In this document: one piece after another, positions 22,044 through 39,815 of the stretch | Layout of the letters: each line of letters begins with the position of its first letter | Position numbering within the stretch: the stretch's first letter is position 1 | Source of the DNA: Myxococcus stipitatus | Lineage (GTDB): Bacteria; Myxococcota; Myxococcia; Myxococcales; Myxococcaceae | DNA: 64,000 bases | Direction of reading: 5' to 3' | NCBI RefSeq assembly: GCF_037414475.1 | Contig: NZ_CP147913.1 | Span: 4,526,001 to 4,590,000, forward strand | Notes under the pieces: generated by a model | Seen by the model: only the letters and a program-made list of their open reading frames with translations | Told to the model about the DNA's origin: nothing | Database searches by the model: none | Program-made: the position numbers and the translations under genes

Positions 22044-23891
22044 ATGGGACTCCGGTACGACGTCATCGTGGTGGGCCTGGGTCATGCGGGCTGTGAGGCG
22101 GCGCTCGCGTGCGCGCGCCTGGGCCTGGCCACGCTGGGAATCACCCTCAAGCGCGAGCGCTCCGCCGTCATGAGCTGCAACCCCGCCGTGGGGGGCACCG
22201 CCAAGGGCCACCTGGTGCGGGAGCTCGACTCGCTGGGTGGACTGATGGGGCGGGCCGCGGACCTCGCCGGCACGCACTTCAAGACGCTCAATGCCTCCAA
22301 GGGCCCCGCCGTGCAGGCGACTCGCATCCTGTGCGACCGCGAGCAGTACGCGGTGCGGATGCAGTCCTTCCTCTTCAACCAGCCGAACCTGACCGTGCGC
22401 GAGGGCGAGGTGTCCACGCTCGTGGTCGAGGGCGGGCGGGTGACGGGGGTGGTGCTCGGCGACGGGACGCAGGTGTCCGCGTCGGCGGTGCTGCTCACCA
22501 CGGGCACCTTCCTCCAGGCGCTGATGCACGTGGGCGAGAAGAAGGAAGTGGGCGGACGCCTGGGCGACGACGCGGCGCGAGGCCTGTCCGATTCGCTGCG
22601 CGCGCTGGGCTTCACGCTGGGCCGGTTCAAGACGGGGACTCCGGCGCGGCTGGCGCGAGCGAGCATCGACTGGGACGCGGTGGAGCCGCAGCCCGGGGAC
22701 CTTCCTCCGCGCCCCTTCTCCTGGCGCACGCGCGAGGAGTGGGCGGCCGGCGCGCCGTTTCCTCGCCAGCCCGCGGTGATGTGCGGCATGACGCAGACCA
22801 CGCTGCGGACGCACCGGGTGCTGCGCGAGAACCTGCACCGCTCGCCGCTGTACCAGGGGGAGATTGTGGGCCGGGGGCCTCGGTACTGCCCGTCGCTCGA
22901 GGACAAGGTGGTGCGCTTCGCGGACCGCGAGCGGCACCAGGTCTTCCTGGAGCCCGAGGGACCGGACTCGCCGCTGGTGTATCCGGCGGGCCTGTCGACG
23001 AGCCTCCCCGCGGACGTGCAGCTCGAGTTCCTGCGGACGATTCCGGGGTTGGAGAAGGTGGAGGTGGTACGGTTCGGTTACGCGGTGGAGTACGACTACG
23101 CGCCGCCCACGCAGCTCAAGCCCACGCTGGAGACCAAGGCGGTCGCGGGGTTGTTCTTCGCGGGGCAGCTCAACGGCACCTCGGGCTACGAGGAGGCGGC
23201 CTTCCAGGGACTGTGGGCGGGGCTCAACGCGGCCCTCCAGGTGAAGGGCGAGCCGCCGCTCCTCTTGGGGCGCGACGAGGCGCACGGCGCGGTGCTGGTG
23301 GATGACCTGGTGACCAAGGGCGTGGACGAGCCGTTCCGCATGTTCACCAGCCGCTCCGAGCATCGCCTGCGCCTGCGTGAAGGCAACGCGGACCTGCGGC
23401 TGGCGAGGCATGGCCATCGGGTGGGGCTGTTGCCGCGCGAGGCGCTCGAGCGGGCGGAGGCGCGTCAGCGGGCGGTGACGGAGGAGGTGACGCGGCTCAA
23501 GCGCACGGGGTTGGCGGCGCGGCTGAAGCGGCCCGAGGTGACGTATGGGCAGTTGGGGGAGGGGAGGGCGGACTGGCCGGTGTTGCCGGAGGACGTGGCC
23601 GAGGAGGTGGAGGTGGAGGTGAAGTACGAGGGCTACATCGCGCAGGCGGCGCGAGCGGCGGCGCGTGAATCCGAGGCGGCGGACCGGTGGAGGATTCCGG
23701 AGGGCTTCGTCTTCCGGGACGTGCGGGGGTTGAGCACGGAGGCGGCGGAGAAGCTGGCGGCGCACAAGCCCTCGACGGTGGGGCAGGCGCGGCGGATTCC
23801 CGGGCTGACGCCGGCCGCGGTGTCCTTGTTGCTGGTGGCCCTCAAGCGCTCCTCGGGGCCTTCCACGGGGGGCGAATCTCCCCAGGGTTGA
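22044..23891 (+). CDS. mnmG: tRNA uridine-5-carboxymethylaminomethyl modification enzyme MnmG (GidA)
   Basis: This FAD-dependent partner of MnmE modifies tRNA U34. The 615-residue length is typical. The FAD-binding [10 protein letters not shown] motif is at about 11-20, followed by [42 protein letters not shown] and [12 protein letters not shown] are all family signatures. The start is ATG, 153 bases into the wider open region. It is followed by rsmG after about 100 bases containing DnaA boxes. Confidence 0.97.
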
Positions 23892-23915: not shown

Positions 23916-23997
23916 TGTGGATAACTTTGGGGATGGAAATCCCCTGAATGATTCCGGAGGGTTAGGGCCCAGCCGGCGGTGGAGGTGCTGTGGATAA
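23916..23997 (+). promoter_or_regulatory. Two exact DnaA boxes between mnmG and rsmG
   Basis: TGTGGATAA, the exact complement of TTATCCACA, occurs at 23916-23924 and again at 23989-23997, in the same orientation and 73 bp apart. A related TGTGGGAAA lies just upstream. Between them is the inverted repeat GGGGAT/ATCCCC at 23929-23944. The second box overlaps the GTG start of rsmG (23990). These are the only exact DnaA boxes I found in the window. They may be part of an origin, a DnaA-binding control site or a promoter element. Confidence 0.65.
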
Positions 23998-24643
23998 CAC
24001 GCGATTCGTAGATCTGCTGGCAACGGGGAGTCGGGCGTTGGGGGTGTCGTTCGGGGCGGAGGTGGGGCCCCAGTTGCAGCGGCTGATGGCGGAGCTGCTG
24101 AAGTGGAACGCGAAGGTGAACCTCACGGCGATTACGGCGCCGGAGGAGGTGTTGGAGAAGCACTTCCTGGATTCGTTGGCGGTGTTGCCGGAGGTGACAG
24201 GGGCGGCGTCGCTGTTGGATTTGGGGGCGGGTGCGGGCTTCCCGGGGGTGCCGTTGAAGATTGCGTTGCCGGCGTTGGGCGTGACGTTGGTGGACACGGT
24301 GGGGAAGAAGGTCGCGTTCATCAAGGCGGCGTCGGCGAGCCTCGGGTTGCAGGGCGTGCGCGGGCTGCATGCGCGAGCGGAGGGGAAGCCGGAGGTGGAA
24401 GGGATTCCGCGCGCGGAGCTGTTGATTGCGCGAGCCTTCATGGACCTGCCGGATTGGTTGGCATTGGCGCCGACGTATGTGGAGCCGGGCGGGCGCGTGG
24501 TGGCGATGTTGGGCAAGGCGCAGACGGACGCGGAGCTGGAAGCGCGAGCGGCGGAGCATCAGTTGCGAGTGGTCTCCGCGAGGGCGTACCGGTTGCCGTT
24601 CTCCGGTGCCGAGCGTCAGGTCGCGGTGTTCGCGAAGCAGTAG
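23990..24643 (+). CDS. rsmG: 16S rRNA (guanine-527-N7) methyltransferase RsmG
   Basis: The SAM-dependent enzyme methylates G527 of 16S rRNA. In 217 residues it carries LLKWNAKVNLTAI at about 38-50, the HFLDSLAVLP block, the SAM motif LLDLGAGAGFPGVPLKIA (about 76-93) and VDTVGKKVAFI. GTG start inside a DnaA box. In most bacteria parA-parB follow immediately, whereas here parA is almost 13 kb further on. Confidence 0.95.
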   Translation: MDNTRFVDLLATGSRALGVSFGAEVGPQLQRLMAELLKWNAKVNLTAITAPEEVLEKHFLDSLAVLPEVTGAASLLDLGAGAGFPGVPLKIALPALGVTLVDTVGKKVAFIKAASASLGLQGVRGLHARAEGKPEVEGIPRAELLIARAFMDLPDWLALAPTYVEPGGRVVAMLGKAQTDAELEARAAEHQLRVVSARAYRLPFSGAERQVAVFAKQ

Positions 24644-24748
24644 GGGAGGGGACCCAGGCGTCGCGCCCGATGTTCGGGCGCTTGATGCCGGGTCTCTGGG
24701 TTCGCGAAGCGGCAGGGGAGGGGCTCTGCGCCGCACCCGGTGTTCGAG
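24628..24748 (+). repeat. 72-bp tandem repeat, two copies
   Basis: A unit starting GTTCGCGAAGC and containing AGGGGAGGGG, a CGGTGTTCG-type block and GCTTGATGCCGGGTCTCTGG begins at 24628 and again at 24700 (period 72). The first copy overlaps the last 16 bases of rsmG. Related copies lie at 26471-26620. Confidence 0.65.
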
Positions 24749-24890
24749 AGGATGAACTGGAGCCCGCGGGCGCGGTCACCCACGGCAACGGCGCCACACA
24801 GGTGAGCAGCGGGCTGCGATGCATGGGTTCTCCTCGGAGTTCGTCAGGCTTCAAGGGCCTGGAGACCTCGAGTGTTACACTCGCCATCAT

Positions 24891-25781
24891 ATGGCAACTC
24901 CAGCCGCAATCGCTGTGTACACGTCGGGCTCGGGGGTCCCCGAGCACGTCTCCGAGCGCCCCTGGCGTGGTGTCTATCATCACCGGGGTGGCAATCTGTC
25001 CAACCTCGGGCAACACCTCATTGACCGCGTTCGGCGCGCGCACGGCGATATGCAGTCCGTGGTGCGCCAGCTCATCGATGAGGCCCCCTGGGGCTGGGCC
25101 CAGTGCATGCCAGGACCCGGCGCACCGGAGGGCGAGCGCAATTCGCGGGATGAGGATGAGGAGGTGAACGACTTCTCGCGAGTCGCCCCGGACAAGACCG
25201 ATATGCTGGGCTACGTCTACGTCTTCGACCTGGACGCACGTCGGCTCGACGCGTTCTCGGCAGGTGTCGCGGAGGACGGCAAACGGCTCTGCTCCGTCGT
25301 CTTTTCGCAGACGGGCACGCCCGACCCGCGGGCGCTCGACCTCTTGCCTGAAGAGACTGTCGATGAACCCCTCCTGCCCGGCAAGGAGCTCTCGGCCACC
25401 GAACTGCAGGGCTGGCTCGAGGGCCTGCCAACGCTCGGGACAGACTCCACGTCCCTCCACTGGGTGGATACACAACAGGGCCCAGACGACGCGCTCGCCA
25501 TCACGTTCCGGGTCATCATCTATGACGACGAAGACGGCAGCATCCGCGACGTGCTGGAACAAGAGTGGGTTGTCGTGCCCCACTCCGCGCGACTGGAGCC
25601 GGAGCGTGTTCGGAACTTCCTCGAGGCGCTCGTCGACGTGGTGAGCGAGGAGCCAAAGCGGCTCGATTCGTTCTGGATTGCCGAGCAGGACACCCTGCGT
25701 CGTTCCGGGGCAAGGCAGCGTGAGAGCTTCGCGAAAATCTTGAGGGCTCACTGGGCCCGCGACCACGACTTCGAGGCGTAG
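24891..25781 (+). CDS. Hypothetical protein flanked by repeats
   Basis: The 296-residue acidic soluble protein has no signal peptide or membrane span. The N-terminus (about 10-50: SERPWRGVYHHRGGNLSNLGQHL) resembles small domains of phage-linked hypothetical proteins, but I cannot assign a family. A central acidic linker (about 85-100) is followed by an alpha/beta region. ATG at 24891 was preferred over an upstream one at 24819 because the latter reads into repeat DNA. It sits between two pairs of 72-bp repeats and just before a dead transposase, so acquisition by transfer is possible. Confidence 0.6.
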   Translation: MATPAAIAVYTSGSGVPEHVSERPWRGVYHHRGGNLSNLGQHLIDRVRRAHGDMQSVVRQLIDEAPWGWAQCMPGPGAPEGERNSRDEDEEVNDFSRVAPDKTDMLGYVYVFDLDARRLDAFSAGVAEDGKRLCSVVFSQTGTPDPRALDLLPEETVDEPLLPGKELSATELQGWLEGLPTLGTDSTSLHWVDTQQGPDDALAITFRVIIYDDEDGSIRDVLEQEWVVVPHSARLEPERVRNFLEALVDVVSEEPKRLDSFWIAEQDTLRRSGARQRESFAKILRAHWARDHDFEA

Positions 25782-25789
25782 TCGCCCTT

Positions 25790-26300
25790 TCGAACGGACA
25801 CGTCGCGCCCCATCTGTCTTCCGCTGCTCGGAGGTTGGGCGAGGCGCTGGCCGCCCACTCTCCCGCGGCCCATGCGGTGGTGAGTCTGGTGGACTTCTGG
25901 CATCTGCTGGAGAGTCTCGGGGCCGCCGCCCGCGTGGTGGCGAGTGAAACCCATACCTCTGCCTTGGATGAGAAGGGGTAGCTGTCCCTGCTCAACGCGT
26001 CTGGAGTGGTGTGGACCCTCGTCAGTGCGCTGCACGCCAGCGGCAAGCGAAAGGTCGTACTCGGCGAGCGGATGCATGACGCAGACGCGCGCGGGTCGCT
26101 CATGGGAGCGGCGACGTGGAGGCCACCTGCGAGTCTCTGGTCGCCCTCCGCATGAAACGCCCCGGGGCTCGCTGGAAGGAGGCGTCTGGCCAGCACATCC
26201 TGGGCCTTCGCGCTCTGGTGCTCTCGGCCCGATGGGACGCCGCCATGCGTCTCACCCTCGCACCGCTGCGCACGGAGGTGCGGCGCGTTGCGTGTTCAGG
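25790..26300 (+). pseudogene. Decayed ISKra4-like transposase fragment
   Basis: Reading through 25810-26110 gives VVSLVDFWHLLESLGAAARVVA and later SGKRKVVLGE, the DFWH-type core typical of ISKra4-family transposases. The frame is broken by a TAG at 25979-25981. From 26116 the +1-shifted frame continues with VEATCESLVALRMKRPGARWKE, GQHILGLRALVLSARWDAAM and APLRTEVR, the conserved C-terminal part. The N-terminal part is missing, and one stop and at least one frameshift are present. The match to ISKra4 is from memory of the family. Confidence 0.75.
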
Positions 26301-26405
26301 ACGAGAACCACACCCGCCCATGCGGAGTGTCGGTCGCGCAGGCTGGAAGCGAGGGCTCGCAAGCAGGGGGACGGCCTCGAGGCTCCGTCGCGACCCATCG
26401 TGATG
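26290..26405 (+). pseudogene. Fragment duplicated from the hypothetical gene at 26786-27304
   Basis: The stretch translates to PAHAECRSRRLEARARKQG, closely matching RAHAECLARRLESRAHKQW near the C-terminus of the gene 900 bases downstream. The DNA also aligns over about 100 bases with small indels (CATGCGGAGTG versus CACGCGGAGTG). No start or upstream part is present, so it is a relic of a tandem paralogue. Confidence 0.65.
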
Positions 26406-26470
26406 ACCATGACCGCGGGCTGTGATTCAGAGACTCCATTGAGTTGAGGATCCGCGTTGTGCGCAGGGTC

Positions 26471-26620
26471 TCTGATTTCACGAACCGGAAGGGGAGGGGG
26501 CTTGGCAGCGCACGCAATGAGCGGGTGCTTGATGCGGGGGCTCTGACCTCGTGAGGCGGAAGGGGAGGGGACCCTGATGCCGCGTCCCGGAGTCCGACGG
26601 AGCTGTGAGCCCATCGAGTC
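26471..26620 (+). repeat. 72-bp-type repeat, two further copies
   Basis: CTCTGA-TTCACGAACCGGAAGGGGAGGGG around 26472-26500 and CTCTGACCTCGTGAGGCGGAAGGGGAGGGG around 26541-26570 are diverged copies, 71 bp apart, of the unit at 24628-24748, including the shared GCTTGATGC block. A weaker fifth copy may lie at 26640-26680. Confidence 0.55.
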
Positions 26621-26785
26621 GGCGCACAAACCTCAAGTCGCGGAGTTCACGACTCAGAGGAGGAGGGACTGAACTCCGGGCGCGACATGCTGAATGTTTG
26701 GAGAAGGAATCACTCGGGCGAGTGAACGAGGGCTCCTTATGCGCCGGATGGGTGAGGACGTTAGGTTTTGGGTGAGGGTGGGAAC

Positions 26786-27304
26786 ATGCAACCACTTCCG
26801 CTGAGCAGTCCTGTCATCTGGAGTGAGCAGGAGCCGCGGGCCTCGCACGTGGCTGTCGCCCGAGTACCTCGTGCTGACTTCGAGCGACGTTGGGGCCCTC
26901 CGCATTGGCGGAGCGAGCAGGATGATGGAGCCGGGTCGACTGAGTCGTGGGGATGGCGCGCGGAATGTGGCTTGTTGCTGGTCGTCTCTTTCATGGAGAG
27001 GACGGGCGCCTTTCACGTCACGGTTCGAGAGGACGAGTTGGACCACGCGCTCGCGCACCTCGATTGGTGGCGAGGAGAAGTGGTGTGGCGTCTTGGTGAG
27101 GGCACTCCTCGTCCGAGCGATGGATGGGCGGTGTACCGACAGGACGACACGGGCAATCTCCACGATGTTTGTGTGATGAGGAACCGAGCCCACGCGGAGT
27201 GCCTGGCTCGCAGGTTGGAGTCGAGGGCTCACAAGCAGTGGTACAGCGTTGAGGCTCGAGGTTCCGCCGTGGCCTGTCGTGATGCGCCCGTGAACGAGCC
27301 GTGA
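26786..27304 (+). CDS. Hypothetical protein in the rsmG-parA insertion
   Basis: The 172-residue soluble protein has no recognised family. It is tryptophan-rich in the middle (WGWRAECGLLLVVSFMERTGAFHVTV, an alpha/beta-like stretch) and has a C-terminal helix rich in alanine and arginine. Codon use is less GC3-biased than in the housekeeping genes. A damaged copy of its 3' end lies upstream at 26290-26405. GAGG precedes the ATG; an in-frame GTG at 26768 is an alternative. Confidence 0.55.
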   Translation: MQPLPLSSPVIWSEQEPRASHVAVARVPRADFERRWGPPHWRSEQDDGAGSTESWGWRAECGLLLVVSFMERTGAFHVTVREDELDHALAHLDWWRGEVVWRLGEGTPRPSDGWAVYRQDDTGNLHDVCVMRNRAHAECLARRLESRAHKQWYSVEARGSAVACRDAPVNEP

Positions 27305-27710
27305 CTCGGTGACCGCGCGAGGGCGGTGAAGCCGTGAAGTCTCGCTGCAAGTGAGCGGTGGGTGTCTCTCGATGGGCATCCCCTTTCGCGCACACTCGCG
27401 TCTGTGAGGAATGCGCGAGCGAGACGTCCTCGTGGTGGCGAGAGGAGTTGGACTCCTGAGGTCGTGTTCAGTGCGTGCGGCACTGTGCTGAACCTGGGCG
27501 CACGCGATGCCGGTGCGGGGGAACGGCGTGAAGCGTGTCAGACGAGCACTCCATCCGGTGAGAGAGTTGCTTGGCGAGCAGGCGGCGCGTTGTTGATGAA
27601 TGGAGCTTTCGTCATCACGTTGCCGCGGACGAAGGTGAATGCGTCGGTCTGCGCGATGTTGGGGCGAAGTGGAGCACAGACCGTGCTCGACTCAGGAAGA
27701 GGGACTTGAG
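27305..27710. other. Gene-free spacer
   Basis: About 400 bases with no supported gene. Open frames give low-complexity products. The composition is similar to the gene-free DNA at 28-31 kb. Confidence 0.5.
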
Positions 27711-28103
27711 ATGGACGTGTACAAGATGAGGGTGGCGCGGCCGACGCGGAACCTCGAGCGGGTGGTGAGGTTCTATCGAGAGGGATTGGGCCTCGAACTT
27801 CTGGGACGTTTCGACGACCACGCGGGCTTCGATGGAGTGATGCTGGGTGAGAGGGGAGCGCCGTATCACCTGGAGTTCACGGTGGAACGAGGGCACGAGG
27901 CTCCGTTGTCTCCATCGGAAGACAACCTGTTGGTCTTCTATCTGCCCCAGCGCGCCGAGTGGGAACAGCGAGTGAGCCGGATGGAGCAAGCTGGCTTCCA
28001 TCCCGTGCGCTCACGCAATCCCTATTGGGACGAACATGGGAAGACCTTCGAGGACCCCGATGGATATCGAGTGGTTCTCTACCAAGGTGAGTGGACCCGG
28101 TAG
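27711..28103 (+). CDS. VOC-family (glyoxalase-like) protein
   Basis: The 130-residue protein has the vicinal-oxygen-chelate fold pattern: RVARPTRNLERVVRFYREGLGLELLGRF at the N-terminus and KTFEDPDGYRVVLYQGEW at the C-terminus. These are the two half-repeats that carry metal ligands in the superfamily. The substrate is unknown; many relatives are annotated as glyoxalase or bleomycin-resistance proteins. AGAGGG lies upstream of the ATG. It is the last recognisable gene before the centromere region. Confidence 0.85.
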   Translation: MDVYKMRVARPTRNLERVVRFYREGLGLELLGRFDDHAGFDGVMLGERGAPYHLEFTVERGHEAPLSPSEDNLLVFYLPQRAEWEQRVSRMEQAGFHPVRSRNPYWDEHGKTFEDPDGYRVVLYQGEWTR

Positions 28104-30901
28104 CGAGCACGAGGAATGCGCATCGTCCAGCCGCGAAGCCGCATTCACTTCGTACCGGCAACATCCGACGAACGAAGCAGGGCCGTCACAGCGGGTCGAG
28201 TTCACAAGCAACGGCCGCACGAGATGGCGCTTCGTAGGAAGAAGAAGCGTTGTCCCGACGGCACATCGTCCATCACAGGTGCAACACGATGGCTGTGAGC
28301 CTCACTTCGGTTCGATGAACGGAACGACGCGGGGACCCAGTGATGAAAGGGGAGTCGGGCGGGGACTGCCAAATTCGCCGCCTGTGCCGAGCATGCGGTG
28401 AACAGGCGTCAGCCAACGTCGACGGCACGAATGCGCCAGGCAACATCAGCGATGATTCGTGCGCGCGAAGTAGGCGGGGAGGTGCCATCACAGCCGTCAC
28501 TCGAACCGGCTTCGGCGTATGGCAAGGAGCCGAGCAAGCGCTGGTGCGCGGCATCGAGAGTCGAACAGGGTTCGCGAGTTCGGTCAGTACGCAGGCGAGA
28601 GGCCGAGCGAGCGCTGGTGCGACGACGAGTTCCCTGCGCTCTGTTGGGCCAGTGACAAAGTCAGCGAAGGAGGTGACGAGCGAGGAGCCAAGCGGCCGCT
28701 GGCATGAGGTCGGCGAGCAGTGCATGTCCGGTGTTCCGCATCGGGTGACTGGCGACGGGCCGAACAGCGAGCGACGAGCATCCGCAATCACGATGCGGAA
28801 CCACGCGCCGAACTGGCGAATCAACAGCACGAGCGAAGGCTCGGCAGCTGAAGGACCGGACTGACTCGCGCCGCTGCCGCCATTCGATGAGCGAGAAGCG
28901 CGAGTCCTCGTGGGCCTGATCGAGAGCTATCGCGATTCGCTGATGCGTCGAGCATGCGAGGCGGCGAATCGAGCCCAAGGATAGAAGGTCCCGGCGGGAG
29001 AGCAGTCTTCGTCACCTGCATGCGGATGGCGCGGCGAAGAGGCTGGCCGGTTGTTGTCCGATGGGTGCGGCGGGAACCAGCTGAGTGACTGCCCATGTCG
29101 ATGGGTTGCAGGGCGCAGATTCGTAAGGGCGGAAGTTGATGCGCATGGCCGGATGCCTCGAGCCCACGCTGATGCGCATCACGGAGTGGGTGAGTGGCCA
29201 CGATGAAGAAGGGCTCGAAGTCAGCACACGCTCGATGCAGGTTGCGATGGTCGTCGCTTCGTCATCGCAGGTTCATGTGATGAGCGCTCATGTCCGTGGA
29301 CTCAAACGCGGGCACAGGAGTTCGACGTTCGAGAAGTGAGCACGGCGCAGCGAGACCTCTCGTCCAATGCCCACGAACAGGGGACCAGGACTGTCGACCC
29401 AACCATGTGGAGTCGAAGCCGGCCGAGTTGGAAGGACTTCCAGCTGCCTCGTTCCGATGCGAGCGGTGGCGACAGCCCGCGCCGCTTGAGCGGAGCTCCA
29501 GCTCCCGTGAAGACCGAGCACCCTTCACGACGGAGGGGCAACACTCAGTCCGGGTCGCTGTGTCGGACGAAGTCTCGATATCGAGGTCGACCGAAGGTCG
29601 CTTCTCGCGGGGAACGAGGCACGCGCTTCAACTCAGCCCCTGTTCCGTGTGAAGCGCTGAGTCGGGCGAGGAGCAAGTTCAAGCAGTGGCCCCCATGACC
29701 AGGCAGTCACCGGTGTGCATGAACGGATGGGGGGAGGGCAAACAACGGGCCGAGCACATGGGCGAGCGGTATGCCTCCCTCTCCGCTGGATGCTGAACAG
29801 CATGTTCAATCCGCGCGAGCTCCTCTGGGGCGTGGGAGGGAGCAAGTGCCCGCATGACGTGCCGGTGTTTCGGCGCCGTCATCGTGATGACCGACGTGTC
29901 CTCCGCCCTCAGGGGAGTGACATGTGCTGATGCGTCGGCAGGTTCCTCGTGGAACGAGCAAGCATCCCATCCGCTTGGGTGAAGGTCCGGCGAGGGGTGA
30001 AGGAAATTGCAGGAGGCATGCAGGAGGCGCCGCGCCTGGCTCCCGCCGAGAGGGCAGGCGAGAACCATGGGGAGTCGTGACGGCGGAGGGTCTGGAGGAG
30101 CGAGGCCTGTGCACAAGTGACGTGAGGCCGAGTGCGGTTCGCATCGTGTTCCAAGAGAATCAGTCAGACCCGGTCGACACGTCGCTGCGGGGTTGGGGGC
30201 AGGCATGTCGCGGCCAAGCGTGGTCCCAGTGGTCCACCATCACGTGTGCCGCGTTGGGTGATGGCGGGCGAGCAGCCTTGAGGGTCCGGTGAAAACGCTC
30301 AGCAGGTTTGGTGAGTGAGGGACTGGGCGCCACATGAATCCCGAGCCTTCGACCACGGGAGACACGGCAACAAGGGTGTCCTCTTTCCCCGTGGCGGGTC
30401 GACGCGGATGCGCTCAGCGGAAGCCCGATGTGGAGGACCAGCTTCAGCAATTCGCATGCGGACACGCGCATCCATCGAAGTGGATGTTGGCGTGTGGTCC
30501 GCGAGGTGCCCTGCGGTGCCGATGAACCTTCGTCCATGAGAAGTGCACCGGAGCTCTGGTCGCGAGGAGACCAAGGAGACGCGGGTGGAGGCGGTGAGCT
30601 CTCCTGCCTGGTCACCTCGGTACGGCAAGCTCAGCGCGAACATGGCGGCGACGAGAAGGTCATCAAGTCACCGCCTGCCTGATGTGGACGAGCAAGGTGC
30701 GGACTTCCGCATCGACGGCCTTCGACTCCGCGGAAGTCATCGCCGTTCCCCATGCCATCAAGGGCGGGCGGAGGTTCAGCGGAGATGGAGGGCCATGAGT
30801 CTCCCGCCGTGGCATCGACTGCCGGGTTGCTGCGGCGCTACCTCCAGATGAAGTGAGGAGAGGACGAACGGCTCCCTCGAGGTGAGCTGGCCTGGAGCGG
30901 C
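28104..30901. other. 2.8 kb of gene-free, degenerate DNA left of the parS array
   Basis: Many short open frames exist on both strands, but none shows a family motif, a convincing ribosome-binding site or the strong G/C third-position bias of the flanking genes. A loose repeat occurs near 28533 and 28602 (GAGC-AGCGCTGGTGCG). One parS copy with a single mismatch (GTTCCTCGTGGAAC) is at 29942-29955. The stretch looks like decayed sequence belonging to the centromere block. Confidence 0.6.
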
Positions 30902-33900
30902 GTTCCACGTGGAACGAGTGGGTGGGCCTCCGGCCGCGCATGAGTGGCACTCGAGGAAATGCCGCACGTGATGCGTGCTCCGTGAGGAAGGACTGGGCGG
31001 ACTTCAGGGCACCGAGACAAGAGCCTCATCGAACGCGAGGCCGAGCAACCAACCGCTGACGGCTGTGCGTTCCACCTGGAACCCGAACGGCCCAGCCCAG
31101 GTGTTGGCCGATGGTGCCTCGAGCCCCACGGTTCCACGTGGAACAAGTGATGACGTCCACGAGATGAGGTGCGGGCAGTTCCGCATCAGCCCAGGAACGA
31201 TGATGAAGGGGCCGACTGAGGTCGCATGGGGTGTCGCACGTGGAACGGGGCGAAAGGTCTTCAAGGCACCCGAAGGAGCGGCACAAGCCACCGAGTGCCA
31301 ACCGTTGCGTGTCCTCCCAGGAACCTGTGCATGGCCGCGGAGGGGGCCTCAGGGTGACTCGCGATGCTGCGAACTTCTGGTCGCCGCGTTCCACGTGGAA
31401 CAAGCGAAGAGGTTCTTGAGCTGCCTCATGTGGTGATGGCGATGAGCCGTGGACGACGGCACCCGCCGCGTTCCACGTGGAACCGAGAAGAGGTCTTCAA
31501 GGCATCGCGGGACCTGGAATTGAGCACGAGGTGATGACCGCTGCGTGTTCCACGTGGAACCTGAGGAAGGCCGCGAAGAAGTCTTCGGAGCGCCCCGCGC
31601 GGCATCAAACCTCTGGGGGGCGCGTTCCACGTGGAACAAGTGAAGGGGTCTTCGGCTCTCCACATGGAGAGACCGCGAGGAGCCTCGAACGCGGTCCTTG
31701 TCGTGTTCCACGTGGAACCTGCGCAGGGCCGCGAAGGCGTCTTCAACGCGCCTCGTGCGGCATCGAGCTTCTGGCGATGGAGCTCCTCATGGCGCATGCG
31801 ACGCGAGCTTCGAAGCACGACAGGAGGATGTGGCACGGAACCTCGGACATGGGCCGTGTCGTGTTCCACGTGGAACCGAGAAGAGGTCTTCAAGTTGGCG
31901 CGATGGAACAGCCGGACCATGAAGTGACGGCAGCTTCGTGTTCCACGTGGAACCTGAGCAAGACCGTGGAGAGGTCCACTTGGTCTCGAACCTCCGGCGC
32001 GGAGTTCCACATGGAACACGTGAAGGAGGCACTCGAATCGCCAGATGTGGAGATGGCGCGGAGCCTCGAGCGCGGTCCTTGTCGTGTTCCACGTGGAACG
32101 GGTGAGGAGGTCTTCAAGGCATCGCGGAGCCTGGGTCCATCCATGAAGTGACGGCCGCTTCGTGTTCCACGTGGAACCAGAGGAAGGGCGCGAAGCGGTC
32201 CTCATGGTGGGCCAGGTGGCCGCGAACTTCTGGCTCTGAGTTCCACGTGGAACACGTGAAGGAGGCACTCGAATCGCCAGATGTGGAGATGGCACGGAGC
32301 CTCGAGTGCGGTCCTTGTCGTGTTCCACGTGGAACGGTGAAGAGGTCCTCAAGGCATCGCGGAGCCTGGGTCCATCCATGAAGTGATGGCCGCTGCGTGT
32401 TCCACGTGGAACCGGAGGAAGGGCGCGAAGCGGTCCTCATGGTGGACCAGCTGGCCGCGAACTTCTGGTTCTGAGTTCCACGTGGAACACGTGAAGGAAG
32501 CACTCGAATCGCCAGATGTGGAGATGGCGCGGCGCCTCGAGCGCGGTCCTTGTCGTGTTCCACGCGGAACGGTGAGGAGGCCTTCAAGGCATCGCGGAGC
32601 CTGGGTCCATCCATGAAGTGACGGCTGCCGCGTGTTCCACGTGGAACCAAAGCAAGGCCGCGACGAGGTCCACTTGGCCTCGGACTTCTGGTCGCCGCGT
32701 TCCACGTGGAACAAGCGAAGCGGCTCTTGAGCGGCCTCATGTGGTGTTGGACCACGGCACCTGTCGCGTTCCACATGGAACGGTGAGGAGGTCTTCAAGG
32801 CATCGCGGAGCCTGGGTCCATCCATGAAGTGATGGCTGCTTCGCGTTCCACGTGGAACACGCGACGGAGGCACTCGAATCGCCACATGTGGATGTGTCGC
32901 CGAGCCTCGAGTGCGGTCCTTGTCGTGTTCCACGTGGAACGGGTGAGGACTCCCTCAAGCCATCGGGGTGGATGGTTCCTGCCATGAAGTGATGGCTGTT
33001 CCGTGTTCCACGTGGAACCAGCACAAGGCCGCGAAGAGGTCCGCGTGGTGTTCAACTGGGTGGCGGACTTCCGGTGCGGCGTTCCACGTGGAACACGTGA
33101 AGGAGCGTTCGAGACATGTCGCGCGGTGGTGGTGCTGCGCGCCCAACGCGGGCCATTCCACGTTCCACGTGGAACAGGTGAGAAGGCCTTCAAGCCATCG
33201 AGAGATGGCCACGTGTTCCACGTGGAACGTGCAGCGAAGTTGTCGAACGGCGGCATGAGGTGGCGATGCTGATGCCCGAACCTGGGCCATGTCGTGTTCC
33301 ACGTGGAACGTGGACATGCGCACGAAGAGCCCTTTGGGCCCGCGCAGTTGATGGCGATGCGGAGCGCTGAGCACGGGCCATGTCACGTTCCGCATGGAAC
33401 AGGGCGACACCTTGATGAGGCCGTCATCGACCTGCGGCTTGCCGCGAACTTCCGGGCGCGCGTTCCACGTGGAACAGGCGAGGACGTCAGGGAGCCGATG
33501 GCATCGGGCACGAAGTGATGACCGCCATGGGTTCCACCTGGCGCTTGGGAGAGCACCACGAAGAGGTCTGCATCGCGAACGCGCTGACCTTGAACTGCTG
33601 GATGGGGCGTTCCACGTGGAACGAGTGATGAAGGCTTCAAGCCGCCGCGCGTGCCGTGGTGGTTCCGAACCGCTGACAGGGACCGGCGCTTGTTCCACGT
33701 GGAACGCGAACTGCTCAGTCGATGCGGTGGTTGATGGTGCCGCGAGCCCGAGTGGTTCCACGTGGAACACGCGCATGGCAGCGAAGAGACCTCCATCCAA
33801 GATTCGGTGGACCGGGGTCATGGGGATGCTGGGTTCCACGTGGAACCCGCATCGTGGACTTCGAGATGCCGCAGGAGGTGCTGGTGGCTGAGGCCAGGAC

Positions 33901-34819
33901 GCGGCCCGCGACGCGCTCCACATGGAACGAGAGTCGTGCGTGTTGTGGTGGCAGTTGGCTTCGGTTCATCTGCTGCCTGCGTTCCACGCGGAACCCGTCC
34001 GGGACCTTGAGGAGGTCTTCATGGCGAACGTCCTGACGTCGAGTTCCTTGGGGGGAGGTCCACGCCGGACGCGAAGCGCACGGTCCATGTGTTGCGTGAA
34101 CGGGATGGGCGGCCACCCGGTTCCATGTGGAGCGCGTGATGTCGTCCACGCAGGGGCGGAACGCGGGACCTGGCCTGCTGCCTGCTTCGTGTGGAACGTG
34201 AATCGCTCGGCCCACGTGTTGGCTGAGGACGACGAGTGCTCACTCGGTTCCACGTGGAACGCGCGATGACGTCCGCACGTGATGGGGCGGTGTGGCGCAG
34301 GGGAGCACGGAACTGGGCTGCGTCCGGCTCCTCATCAAGCGTGAATCGCTCGGCTGATGTGTTGCCTGAGGGCGACGAGTGCTTCCGCGGTTCCACATGG
34401 ACGGAGCGATGGCATCCGCAAGTGATGGGGTGGTGTAGCGCGGGGGGCACGGAACTGGGCTGCGTCCTGCTCCACCTCGAACGTGAGTTGCTCGGCCGAT
34501 GTGTTGGCTGAGGGTGCCGACTGCTCATCCGGTTCGGCGTGGAACAAGTGATGACGTCCACATGAGGGAAGCGAAGCGCGGGACCTGAGATGCTGCCGTG
34601 CTCCATGCGGAACGTGAATCGCTCGGCTCATGTGTTGGCTGAGGGCGACGAGTGCTCACTCGGTTCCACATGGACCGGGTGATGACATCTGCACGTGACG
34701 GGGTGTGTGGCGCGGGGTTCAAGGAACCGGGCTGAGTCCTGCTCCACATCGAACGCGAACCATTCAGCCCATGGGGTTGGCCTGAGAGCGACGAGTGCTC
34801 ACCCGGTTCCACGTGGAAC
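30902..34819. repeat. parS: parS centromere array: 31 exact ParB-binding palindromes
   Basis: The 14-bp palindrome GTTCCACGTGGAAC is present exactly at (start positions) 30902, 31131, 31388, 31470, 31547, 31624, 31705, 31863, 31940, 32086, 32164, 32240, 32322, 32399, 32475, 32634, 32699, 32845, 32927, 33005, 33081, 33162, 33215, 33296, 33462, 33609, 33692, 33755, 33833, 34247 and 34806. Single-mismatch copies inside or near the block start at 31069, 32004, 32557, 32768, 33981 and 34949. Spacing in the dense part is mostly 76-83 bp. The same palindrome is the ParB nucleation site in other bacteria, and ParB is encoded 4 kb to the right. ParB loading here should mark the origin region for segregation. 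Confidence 0.95.
31388..33240. repeat. Higher-order ~235-bp repeat, three parS sites per unit
   Basis: Spacers between parS sites fall into three types in fixed order: one containing GAGGCACTCGAATCGCC, one containing AGGTCTTCAAGGCATCGCGG, and one containing AAGGCCGCGAAGAGGTC or close variants. Together they form a unit of about 235 bp. The unit recurs at 32004, 32240, 32475 and 32845 (steps 236, 235, 370) and again at 33081; 31388 to 31624 is also 236. Shortened units occur at 32475 (224 bp) and 32699 (146 bp). This is a satellite built by unequal exchange. Confidence 0.8.
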
Positions 34820-35960
34820 GCGTGATGCTGTCCACACGTGATGGGGTGTGCGGCGCGGGGTTCAAGGAACCGGGCTGAGTCCTGCTCCACATCGAACGCG
34901 AACCATTCGGCCCATGGGGTTGGCCTGAGGGCGACGAGTGCTCACCCGGTTCCGCGTGGAACGCGTGATGCCGTCCGCACGTGATGGAGTGGCGGGGCGG
35001 GACGCAGGAACTAGGGGGCTGCCTGCTCCTGGTGGAACGCGAGCCGCTCAATCCCATGGGTTGGTTGAGTGGATGCGCGACGATGCGCTTCCGCGTGGAA
35101 CGCGTGATGCCGTCCGCACGCGATGGAGTGGCGCGGCGGGACGCAGGAACTGGGGTGCTGCCTGCTCCAGATGGAACGCGAGCCGCTCAACTTGTGGACT
35201 GGTTGAGTGGATGCGCGGCAATGCGGTTCGGTGTGGACGCGAGATGAGGTCCGCACGCGATGGCGTGGTGCGGCGGGACGCAGGAACTAGGGGGCTGCCT
35301 GCTCCTGGTGGAACGGGAACCGCTCAACTTGTGGACTGGTTGAGTGGATGCGCGGCAATGCGGTTCGGTGTGGACGCGAGATGAGGTCCGCACGTGATGG
35401 AGTGGTCTGTGGAGAGCAGGAGCTGTGGAGCTGCCTGCTCCTGGTGGAACGCGAGCCGCTCAGCTCATGTGTTGGCTGAGGCATGAGCGTCGACATGGGT
35501 CTGCTCGGGACACGAGATGAGGTCCGCACGTGATGGAGTGGTCTGTGGAGCGCAGGAGCTGTGGAGCTGCCTGCTCCTGGTGGAATGCGAGCCGCTCAGC
35601 CCTTGGGTTGGTTGAATGGAGTGGTGTGGGGAGCGCAGGAGCTGGAGAGCTGCCTGCTCCAGGTGGAACACGAATCGCTCAGTCCATGGGTTGGTTGAGG
35701 GGACGAGTGGCCGCTCGGTTCCATGTGGAACGCGTGCTGAGGTCCGCACGTGATGGAGAGTGTGCTGGGGATGCAGGAACTGGGGTGCTGCCGGCTCCAG
35801 GCGGAACGCGAACCGCTCAGCCCATGAGTTGGTTGAGTGGATGAGCGGCCACGCGGTTTCTTGTGGAACGCGTGATGATGTCCGCACGCGATGAGGTGGC
35901 GCGGCGGCACGCAGGAACTGGAGTGTTGCCTGCTCCACATGGAACCTGGGCAAGGTCGCG
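34180..35960. repeat. 136-139 bp satellite with eroded parS sites
   Basis: A block reading TGCCTGCTCC-tGGTGGAACGCG-AGCCGCTCA starts at 35020, 35159, 35296, 35432, 35568, 35651, 35789 and 35927 (steps 139, 137, 136, 136, 83, 138, 138). Related units extend left to about 34180. Each unit has two parS-derived positions about 62 bp apart: one now GCTCCTGGTGGAAC-like and one around the CGGTTCC-type block. Only 34247 and 34806 remain exact; 34949 and 35718 have one mismatch. Intact ancestors of this pair occur at 33692/33755 and 31069/31131. Confidence 0.75.
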
Positions 35961-37152
35961 ATGAACTCAACGTGGCGAACGCCTGTGAAGTGGTCGGGGC
36001 ATTCCACTTAGAGCTTGTGATGAGTGGCTTCTTGCGGACGCGTGGAGGACTGGCGCCGAACGCAGAACGTGGACCGCGGTTTGCCACTCATGAACTGAAA
36101 GCATGGTGACGAGACGACCCTCATCGAGAAGGGGGAACCTCAGGATGGCTAGGGCGTTCCACTTGGAAATGGTGGTGAGGCGGCGGACGCGTGATGGACT
36201 GGCTCCGAACACAGAGCGTGGACGGTGGTCTGCCCTGCATGGAACGTAGGCCTGGTGACGAGACGATCTTCATCGCGGAGGAGGAGCTTGTCCGTATGGC
36301 CTGGGGCGTGGGTTCGCGCGGCCGCGTGAAGTGGCGACGTCGAGCGCAGCGCGTGGACCCATCTGAGATTCCCCTGGCCGCGAGCGGGAGCAGGTGAAGG
36401 GTGTATGGGTTCGGCGTTCCAGATGGACCGCGTGATGCGGCCTTCAAGTCACGACGGTGAGAGGTGACAAGCGCGAAGCGAAGGGCACGTCACGCGTCGA
36501 GGCGGATCTGGAGCAGGGCTCCGAGAGGGCTTCAGGGTGAAGCCCTCGGCGTTCCACACGGAGCGATGGAGCTGGGCTGCGCGTTGCCATATGCGGTGGC
36601 AGTGCTGACCCGGTCGAAGGCGGATGCGTCCTCCTCGCGGTTCCGCTGATGCAGTGGTTCCGAACCCAGGACATGGCTGATGCCTTGTCGAATCCGAACG
36701 AAACCACCGTGAAGACCCTGTTCGCGTAAGCAGATTGAGTCCCGCGGAGTGTGGAACCTGGGCGAGTCCTCGCCGCGCGCTTCACCACTCACGGCATGGC
36801 CTTGGTCGTGTGCCCAGTCCGAATCGTGTGAAAGAAGAAGCGCGCACCCCTCGTGGATGCGGTGATGCCGAGCCCAGAACATGGCCGCATCACTTGACCT
36901 CGTTCGCAGCGACAGGTCCGTGGACTCGGCGTCGTTGTTGCTCAAGCGGTTGGACCCGAACCCGGAACACAATCCATCGAGCGCTCCACTGTGCCTGAGG
37001 GGGGCCTCGCCACGGTGCCGCAGCCGTGCCCGGGCCAGCGACGTGCGCACTGTCACAGTGCCGAGCCCGAAAAGGCGAACTCGCCAGGTCCGCATGCGAG
37101 GGCTCGAAGAAATCACCAGCGCGAATGCCCCGACCGCGCGCGCAGGCACACC
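35961..37152. other. Decayed right flank of the centromere
   Basis: No gene is supported. Very worn parS-like sequences are visible, for example GTTCCACTTGGAAA at 36155 and further GTTCCA-half sites near 36414 and 36550. Open frames on both strands carry no motif. The stretch appears to be older satellite DNA that has lost ParB sites. Confidence 0.5.
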
Positions 37153-37332
37153 GTTCCACATGGAACCGCGGCCCACTGCTCCGAACCACCGCATACCGGT
37201 TACACGCACCCGTGGCCTCACCCCAGGCCACGAAAACGCCACACCCAGTGACCACGGACCCACCGCCATGGAGGCACCGCACACCCGGTTCCACGGGGAA
37301 CACTCACGCCACCGCGCCTCCTTATAAGGAGG
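37153..37332 (+). promoter_or_regulatory. parA upstream region with two parS-like operators
   Basis: GTTCCACATGGAAC (37153-37166) and GTTCCACGGGGAAC (37288-37301) each differ from parS by one base. The second ends 20 bases before TTATAA (37322-37327), which lies inside a 16-bp perfect palindrome (CCTCCTTATAAGGAGG, 37317-37332) and could be a -10 element. If so, ParB bound at 37288 would cover the -35 position and repress parAB. A leader of about 260 bases would then precede parA. Confidence 0.5.
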
Positions 37333-37591
37333 GCCTCCGACCGACCTTCGTGGCACCGTGCAAACCCTGGATGACAGGGGCCTCCGGGCCGCGTTCCACA
37401 CCCGGGACTCCGGACCTTCAAGTCCTTGGAATCAGGCCTCGCGGCCTGCTCGGAAACCCTCGAAAAGAGGAACCGTGCCACGCGTGCCGCGAATTTGATC
37501 CAACACCGAACCGCATGTTAGCAGCGGGATCCGCGCGCAGTCGTGCGTTACACCTCGCACGGCGCCTGGCGCTCGCCGGGCAAGAGAGAGG

Positions 37592-38392
37592 ATGGGCCTC
37601 GTGGGTCGAATCATCTGCATCTCCAATCAGAAGGGCGGCGTGGGCAAGACGACCACCGCCATCAACCTCGCCGCGAGCCTGGCCTCCGCTGAACGCCGCA
37701 CGCTCCTGGTGGACATGGACCCCCAAGGCAACGCCGGCAGCGGCCTGGGTCTCAAGCAGGACAAGCTCCACGGCACCATCTACGACGCGCTCCTCAATGG
37801 CCGCCCCATGAAGGAGCTCTTCCACCCCACCGAGCTGCGCTACCTCCAGGTCGTCCCCGCCACCCCCGACCTCACTGGCGCCGAAGTCGAACTCGTCGGC
37901 CAGGAGAACCGCGAGTTCCGCCTCCGCGACGCCCTGCGCCCCCTCGCCTCCGAGTTTGATTACATCATCATCGACTGTCCGCCCTCGCTCGGCCTGCTCA
38001 CCCTCAACGCCCTGTCCGCCGCGGACTCCGTCCTCATCCCCCTCCAGTGCGAGTACTACGCGCTCGAGGGCCTCTCCCAGCTCACCCACACCATCGACCT
38101 GGTGAAGCAGGGCCTCAACCCGGACCTGAAGATGGAGGGCATCCTCCTCACCATGTTCGACGCGCGCGCCAACATCGCCCACCAGGTCGTCGAGGAAGTG
38201 CGCGGCTACTTCAAGGACCAGGTCTTCCAGGTCGTCGTCCCGCGCAACGTGCGCCTGTCCGAGTGCCCGTCGTTCGGCAAGCCCATCATCCTCTATGACA
38301 TCAAGTCGAAGGGCTGCGAGAGCTACCTCGCGCTCGGCCGGGAACTGATGAAGCGCGACGCCCCCAAGTCCCCCCGCAGGCGGGTGGCTTGA
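37592..38392 (+). CDS. parA: Chromosome-partitioning ATPase ParA
   Basis: The ParA/MinD-type ATPase binds DNA non-specifically when ATP-bound and moves ParB-parS complexes. In 266 residues it has the deviant Walker A KGGVGKTT at 14-21, DMDPQGNAGSG near 47, and the Walker B-like IIIDCPPSLGLLTLNAL near 130. The length matches the short chromosomal ParA type with no N-terminal DNA-binding domain. GAGAGAGG precedes the ATG. parB follows after 88 bases. Confidence 0.97.
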   Translation: MGLVGRIICISNQKGGVGKTTTAINLAASLASAERRTLLVDMDPQGNAGSGLGLKQDKLHGTIYDALLNGRPMKELFHPTELRYLQVVPATPDLTGAEVELVGQENREFRLRDALRPLASEFDYIIIDCPPSLGLLTLNALSAADSVLIPLQCEYYALEGLSQLTHTIDLVKQGLNPDLKMEGILLTMFDARANIAHQVVEEVRGYFKDQVFQVVVPRNVRLSECPSFGKPIILYDIKSKGCESYLALGRELMKRDAPKSPRRRVA

Positions 38393-38480: not shown

Positions 38481-39365
38481 TTGGTGAAAGCAGACCAGAA
38501 ACGAGCCCTCGGCCGCGGGCTCTCCGCACTCATCCCCCAGGCCGCCCCTGGCAAGGGCAACGACGCGGCCGCCAACAAGGCCGGCGTCATCAAGCTCCCC
38601 ATCGAGTCCATCCACCGGGACAAGGAGCAGCCCCGCCGCCACTTCGACGAGGAGAAGCTCAAGGAGCTCACCGAGTCCATCAAGGCCCAGGGCATCCTCA
38701 TGCCCATCCTCGTCCGCAAGGACCAGGACGGCTACCGCATCATCGCCGGTGAGCGCCGCTGGCGCGCCTCCCAGGCCGCCGGCCTCAAGGAAGTCCCCGT
38801 CATCATCAAGGAGGTCACCGAGGTCCAGGCCTTTGAACTGGCCCTCGTCGAGAACCTCCAGCGCGCCGACCTCAACCCCATTGAAGAGGCGGAGGGCTAC
38901 AAGCGCCTGGCCGAGGAGTTCAAGCTCTCCCAGGAGCAGATCAGCCAGCGCGTGGGCAAGGAGCGCTCCACCGTCGCCAACGCCCTGCGCCTGTTGGCCC
39001 TGCCCGCGGACGTGAAGGGCATGGTCGCGGATGGCTCATTGAGCATGGGCCACGCGCGCGCGCTGTTGGGCGTCCCCCGGTTGCCGGAGTTGCAGAACCT
39101 GGCCAAGCAGGTGGCGGAGAAGAAGCTCTCCGTGCGTGACACGGAGCGCCTGGTCCAGCAGAGTCGCTCCCACGGCAAGAAGGATGCGGGCAAGACGCCG
39201 CCGAAGCAGAGCCCGCAGGTGAAGTCCTTGGTGGAGGAGCTCCAACGCCGCTTGGGGACCAAGGTCCGGTTGACCGAAAGAAGCCCCGGAAAGGGCACCA
39301 TCGAGGTGGACTTCTTCTCCTACGATGACCTGGACCGGCTGTTGAAGCTGCTCAGGAAGGAGTAG
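38481..39365 (+). CDS. parB: Chromosome-partitioning CTPase ParB
   Basis: ParB recognises parS, binds CTP and slides along DNA as a clamp. In 294 residues it has the ParA-stimulating N-terminus (RALGRGLSALIP, about 8-19), the CTP-binding GERRWR at 90-95, ENLQRADLNPIEEAEGYKRL near 125, the HTH region SQEQISQRVGKERSTVANALRLL near 153-175, and a C-terminal dimerisation domain (about 245-294). The start is TTG at 38481 or GTG at 38484; GGAG at 38470-38473 suits either. Confidence 0.97.
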   Translation: MVKADQKRALGRGLSALIPQAAPGKGNDAAANKAGVIKLPIESIHRDKEQPRRHFDEEKLKELTESIKAQGILMPILVRKDQDGYRIIAGERRWRASQAAGLKEVPVIIKEVTEVQAFELALVENLQRADLNPIEEAEGYKRLAEEFKLSQEQISQRVGKERSTVANALRLLALPADVKGMVADGSLSMGHARALLGVPRLPELQNLAKQVAEKKLSVRDTERLVQQSRSHGKKDAGKTPPKQSPQVKSLVEELQRRLGTKVRLTERSPGKGTIEVDFFSYDDLDRLLKLLRKE

Positions 39366-39368
39366 CGC

Positions 39369-39815
39369 GTGGCGCTCCTTGGCGGGAAGAAAGACGAAGC
39401 ACCCAGCAGGCCTCTGTTCAAGCGGGAGGAGGAATCCGTGTCGCAGCGCTCTGGTGAGGTTCATACGCTTCTGGGCAAGGGAAGCGAGTTCGAGGGGAAG
39501 CTCACCTTCGAGGGGCAGGTCCGTATCGACGGAAAGTTCCAGGGGCAGATCATCACCAAGGACGTGCTCGTCATTGGAGATGGCGCCAAGGTCCAGGCTG
39601 AAATCCAGGCCGGCACCGTCATCATCAACGGTCAGGTGGAAGGCAACGTGAAGGCCACCCAGATCATCGAGCTCAAGACGCCGGGCCGGGTGAAGGGCAA
39701 CCTGGAGACGCCGTCGCTGTCCATGGACCGCGGGGTCATCTTCGAGGGTTCGCTGAAGATGGAGAACCTGGGCAACGCGTCCCGTCCTCCTCCCCCCGGC
39801 GGCGAGAAGAAGTAG
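39369..39815 (+). CDS. bacM: Bactofilin, BacM-like
   Basis: Bactofilins polymerise into beta-helical filaments without nucleotide. The 148-residue protein has an N-terminal tail (about 1-38), a core of short beta-helix repeats (LGKGSEFEGKLTFEGQVRIDGKFQGQI, then VIGDGAKVQAEIQAGTVIINGQVEGNV and so on, about 40-128), and a proline/glycine-rich tail ending in lysines. In Myxococcus the bactofilin next to parAB is BacM, needed for cell shape; the symbol rests on that synteny. GTG start three bases after parB, so it is likely co-transcribed. Confidence 0.88.
   Translation: MALLGGKKDEAPSRPLFKREEESVSQRSGEVHTLLGKGSEFEGKLTFEGQVRIDGKFQGQIITKDVLVIGDGAKVQAEIQAGTVIINGQVEGNVKATQIIELKTPGRVKGNLETPSLSMDRGVIFEGSLKMENLGNASRPPPPGGEKK

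Follow-up and report, generated by a model that had tools for sequence, protein, structure and literature searches.

Satellite-like organisation of the origin-proximal parS array of Myxococcus stipitatus, a high-copy example of a known bacterial centromere

Bacterial chromosomes other than those of the myxobacterium considered here mostly carry 1-4 parS sites, with 5-8 in several and at least 20 in a few, according to an earlier survey as relayed by PMC3899335. The closest described system is that of Myxococcus xanthus, in which 22-24 parS sites lie within 3 kb (PMC3899335, PMC3778016). In vitro, the ParB protein of this species binds the parS consensus, and ChIP-seq of ParB-3xFLAG shows a broad peak that covers the parS region (PMC3899335, PMC3778016, PMC7156744). 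Loading of M. xanthus ParB, CTP-dependent closure of the clamp, its sliding along DNA, and ParA-driven movement have all been established (PMC12462528, PMC7156744).

A first-pass annotation of the window, the 64,000-nucleotide stretch of M. stipitatus DNA analysed here, had reported 31 exact GTTCCACGTGGAAC palindromes between rsmG and parA, mostly 76-83 bp apart, and had called them exceptionally large and dense for a chromosomal centromere; it had also predicted that such density would permit unusual ParB loading and clamp traffic. The count holds in the window and in the complete 10.31-Mb genome, where all 31 exact copies fall inside the block at 30902-34819 and the reversed-pattern control gives a single match; equally many copies elsewhere on the chromosome were looked for, and zero exact copies lie outside the block. 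When one mismatch is allowed the genome holds 42 sites, 41 of them in the gap between rsmG and parA, so that the sites are concentrated in the origin region and almost missing from other parts of the chromosome, and their measured spacing (median 78 bp, interquartile range 76-82) agrees with the annotation. The window has 70 matches with up to three mismatches, whereas shuffled sequence gives 2.8 on average (sd 1.6, largest 7). The perfect sites are concentrated at 30.9-33.9 kb (29 of 31), degenerate copies continue past 34819 as far as about 36.6 kb, and a pair of one-mismatch copies follows further on (Table 1), which makes the array longer than annotated. As the sites on the parA side are mostly imperfect, integrity drops from the core of the array towards parA. 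The isolated site on the rsmG side, GTTCCTCGTGGAAC, occurs with identical sequence and in similar isolation in three other genomes (G008, G017 and G019).

Table 1. Features of the parABS region of M. stipitatus, in window coordinates
Feature	Position	Strand	Remarks
dnaA	3534..4886	-	origin marker, ~26 kb from array; genome 4529609-4529812 match and ORF
mnmG (GidA)	22044..23891	+	PF01134
rsmG (GidB)	23990..24643	+	PF02527, 4.9e-40
rsmG-parA gap	24644..37591	.	~12.9 kb; no Pfam-supported gene
Isolated site GTTCCTCGTGGAAC, rsmG side	29942..29955	.	one mismatch; ~1 kb before array
Core parS array	30902..34819	.	31 exact GTTCCACGTGGAAC; one- to three-mismatch copies interspersed
Higher-order repeat	31987..32858	.	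235-bp unit with three parS sites, 3.8 copies; Tandem Repeats Finder
parA-side flank	34194..35937	.	decayed two-site repeats, 137-143 bp period; sites mostly with 1-3 mismatches
Imperfect parS copy GTTCCACATGGAAC	37153..37166	.	one mismatch; 439 bp before parA
Imperfect parS copy GTTCCACGGGGAAC	37288..37301	.	one mismatch, position 9 altered; 304 bp before parA
Perfect palindrome CTCCTTATAAGGAG	37318..37331	.	sole exact copy in genome; 16 bp after 37288 copy
parA	37592..38392	+	AAA_31, 3.4e-65
parB	38481..39365	+	ParB_N, HTH_ParB, ParB_C
Bactofilin gene	39369..39815	+	PF04519; directly 3' of parB

The gene context is that of a ParABS centromere: the many parS copies adjoin parA and a three-domain parB, dnaA is close by, and mnmG and rsmG are the neighbours on the other side. 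The only HTH_ParB match in the whole genome is parB itself, and residues 33-244 of its product match the solved ParB chain 7BNK, which we take to be M. xanthus ParB, at 400 bits. Since the locus has parA, a sole HTH_ParB gene and a ParB very near a crystallised one, we regard it as a standard ParABS centromere; the identity given in the annotation is thus supported by motif, parA-parB context, origin proximity and genome exclusivity. Within the rsmG-parA gap we found no gene of normal codon composition, no Pfam match and no Rfam RNA family. A 320-codon open reading frame at 24819-25781, directly after rsmG, lacks a Pfam match and the usual third-position GC bias and is possibly an orphan gene that was recently acquired.

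By analogy with M. xanthus, ParB dimers would load at the 31 perfect palindromes of M. stipitatus, close around the DNA with CTP, and then slide off the sites, condensing the gene-poor DNA around the array into a partition complex for ParA to pull to the opposite half of the cell. The DNA between sites would have no sequence-specific function. Sites would be gained by tandem duplication of units holding one to several of them and lost by mutation, with selection retaining a sufficient number of perfect copies. We hold with high confidence that the locus is an origin-proximal ParABS centromere of this kind, at which ParB would load, units turn over by tandem duplication, and selection acts on the number of perfect parS sites.

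The array is a property of the genus. It is present in all 27 Myxococcus species examined, with 15-35 exact copies each, and the counts from fragmented assemblies are lower bounds because some of the genomes are drafts, which may collapse copies. The gap between rsmG and parA measures 7.8-13.0 kb in all 23 species with both ends present, ParA is 91-100% identical across the genus, and the median spacing of the sites lies between 77 and 170 bp. The copy number is 1-20 in related genera and mostly 1-7 elsewhere in the order and phylum. Outside the genus, the largest arrays among the at least 80 loci listed by a GTDB scan for three closely spaced parS sites, which shows dense arrays elsewhere and is no census, hold 17, 15 (36-bp spacing) and 13 (43-bp spacing) sites. 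Four loci from uncultured Bacilli, Ruminococcus and Clostridiales contigs (L101, L105, L131 and L143) carry very regular arrays with spacings of 36, 43, 57 and 42 bp, tighter than those of M. stipitatus. The first-pass annotation was right that the array outnumbers that of M. xanthus, with 31 exact sites against the 22-24 published (PMC3899335, PMC3778016). Its description as exceptionally large does not stand beside the genus range, in which three close relatives also have 31 exact sites and G004 has 35, nor does unusual density beside the tandem arrays that uncultured Bacilli and Ruminococcus genomes carry at spacings of 36-57 bp. The M. stipitatus array is a known type of centromere with a copy number near the top of the genus range, and is not exceptional. 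The window species and its three nearest relatives (L043, L044 and L045) all have exactly 31 perfect sites despite extensive reorganisation of the spacer DNA between them; the equal number may reflect chance or selection on copy number.

The DNA between the sites has the structure of a tandem repeat. Spacers of the higher-order repeat are 85-97% identical at a distance of three sites and about 50-60% identical between neighbours in pairwise comparison, which defines the three-site unit of 235 bp. Matches between spacers of one and the same genome are all direct (1378 direct, 0 inverted), and for 24 of the 33 spacers of the window genome (G000) the best match is another spacer of the same genome. 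Thus the array has the head-to-tail higher-order units and the lineage-specific turnover of repeat units that characterise satellite DNA. In alpha satellite arrays, a conserved CENP-B box lies inside a fast-changing repeat. In the literature searched, no relevant account of parS evolving by repeats or like a satellite turned up.

Between distant species only about 1-10% of the spacer can be aligned. Among 12 close pairs, aligned spacer diverges by 0.065-0.190 and parS by 0.010-0.064, a difference of 2-15 times, taken from well-aligning windows only and from site columns that are exact in at least one member of the pair, a choice that favours low parS divergence. In these pairs divergence is 2.6-13% at the fourfold-degenerate sites of parA and rsmG and 6.5-19% in the spacer, so the spacer evolves near the unconstrained rate or faster. 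The simplest reading of these sequences is that multi-site units are born and lost by tandem duplication while selection acts on the 14-bp sites. An array that is instead a selfish or neutral repeat expansion, in which few parS sites suffice and the others are passengers of slippage whose number brings no benefit, would fit the free variation of unit period and copy number (15-35 copies at 77-170 bp), the plentiful decayed copies on the parA side, and the outgroup genera that manage with 1-6 sites. Passengers should decay like the spacer, however, and parS does not; moreover, every member of the genus retains at least 15 perfect copies. We therefore consider neutral expansion unlikely. The spacing of about 80 bp could itself be functional, through phased loading of ParB or a regular nucleoprotein fibre, and the narrow spacing range in M. 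stipitatus and its close relatives is what such a function would give. It is nevertheless very improbable: helical phasing of the sites is absent both in M. stipitatus (R 0.09 versus about 0.15 for random positions) and over the genus (R 0.05), medians reach 90-170 bp in other genus members, and the pitch results from recent duplications. With genus medians that span such a range and share no helical phase, the 80-bp pitch looks incidental, no feature of the sequence speaks for a special role of it, and duplication of units with selection on the sites remains our preferred account.

Relics of such duplications could also explain the imperfect sites near parA, and here the choice is closer. The genus has no exact site in the last 1.7 kb before parA, a limit that was picked after inspection of the data from species that are not independent; one-mismatch sites there number 33, compared with 575 exact and 135 one-mismatch sites farther off. 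Most species retain one-mismatch copies in this stretch, chiefly 250-700 bp from parA, an interval that over 26 species contains no exact site, 22 with one mismatch and 7 with two. If they were the decaying remains of an array formerly extending to parA, and not functional operators, these sites would be expected to be absent from some species, and four Myxococcus species lack any site in the 700 bp before parA; this history would also fit the other genera, in which the corresponding site is often perfect or GTTCCACGTGAAAC. Yet the surrounding DNA cannot be aligned between most species, and in 21 of the 26 a copy with two mismatches or fewer nonetheless persists at -250 to -700, against a total of 0.025 from shuffled sequence. 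The mismatches are also unlike those of decaying array copies in being concentrated at position 6 or its mirror, position 9: in the 700 bp next to parA, one or other of these positions is altered in 21 of 23 one-mismatch sites, as against 30 of the 142 in the array (Fisher p ~1e-10, computed without correction for relatedness). Decay is a real possibility, if in our judgement a somewhat doubtful one. With moderate confidence, these patterns suggest instead that a weakened candidate ParB site is maintained at the parA promoter, and with less confidence that the imperfect copies are weaker ParB sites through which ParB may monitor or control parAB without loading fully at the promoter. Several other genera have perfect sites 100-400 bp from parA, so a perfect site in this position is not generally harmful.

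Two positions distinguish parS from NBS, the site of Noc, and position 6 is among them (PMC7383237). A second, Noc/NBS-type reader of the variant sites was ruled out by the single HTH_ParB match in the genome. A genome-wide GTTCC-N4-GGAAC regulon was likewise rejected, as nearly all of the 58 copies lie in the gap and the scattered few are near the control level. Like GTTCCACGGGGAAC, GTTCCACGAGGAAC and GTTCCGCGTGGAAC differ from perfect parS. Beside the imperfect copies, CTCCTTATAAGGAG may belong to the promoter of parA or serve as its operator, and TTATA-centred boxes that resemble it occupy the corresponding place in most genus members.

Taken together, Myxococcus centromeres may evolve as satellite DNA in which two roles of parS have been split, with perfect loading sites kept 1.9 kb or more away from parA and a weak site, altered at position 6 or 9, conserved at the parA promoter. 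We put this combined proposal forward tentatively, as plausible but short of probable. The M. stipitatus cluster is a well-defined high-copy example of the known ParABS system, and the comparison of 27 species is worth more than the single cluster. It provides a natural series of arrays with 15-35 sites, pitches of 77-170 bp and a highly conserved parA, in which the effect of parS number and spacing on ParB loading can therefore be asked. The array also offers a bacterial instance in which a centromere evolves in a satellite-like manner while its protein-binding box stays conserved, and the imperfect sites near parA make feedback of ParB on this gene a testable possibility. The satellite-like construction and these imperfect sites are the parts that merit following, beyond the first reading of the locus.

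At the sequence level the array resembles eukaryotic centromeric satellites in its higher-order repeats, the quick turnover of its spacers, its conserved protein-binding box and its one decayed edge. It differs from them in being non-homologous, of kilobase and not megabase size, and without a centromeric histone, so that the likeness is one of resemblance only. Like other multi-parS chromosomes, that of M. stipitatus has palindromic parS sites near the origin and a ParB with CTPase, helix-turn-helix and C-terminal domains, but in those chromosomes the sites are usually few and scattered, whereas here they form a compact array of direct repeats in a gene-free gap. The nearest likeness is to parABS of M. 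xanthus, for which ParB binding has been demonstrated and which shares the motif, the gene neighbourhood and the origin proximity. The M. xanthus sites span about 3 kb and lie 4 kb upstream of parA, whereas the perfect copies of M. stipitatus extend over 3.9 kb, 2.8 kb from parA, with unrelated spacer sequence and a clear three-site higher-order repeat.
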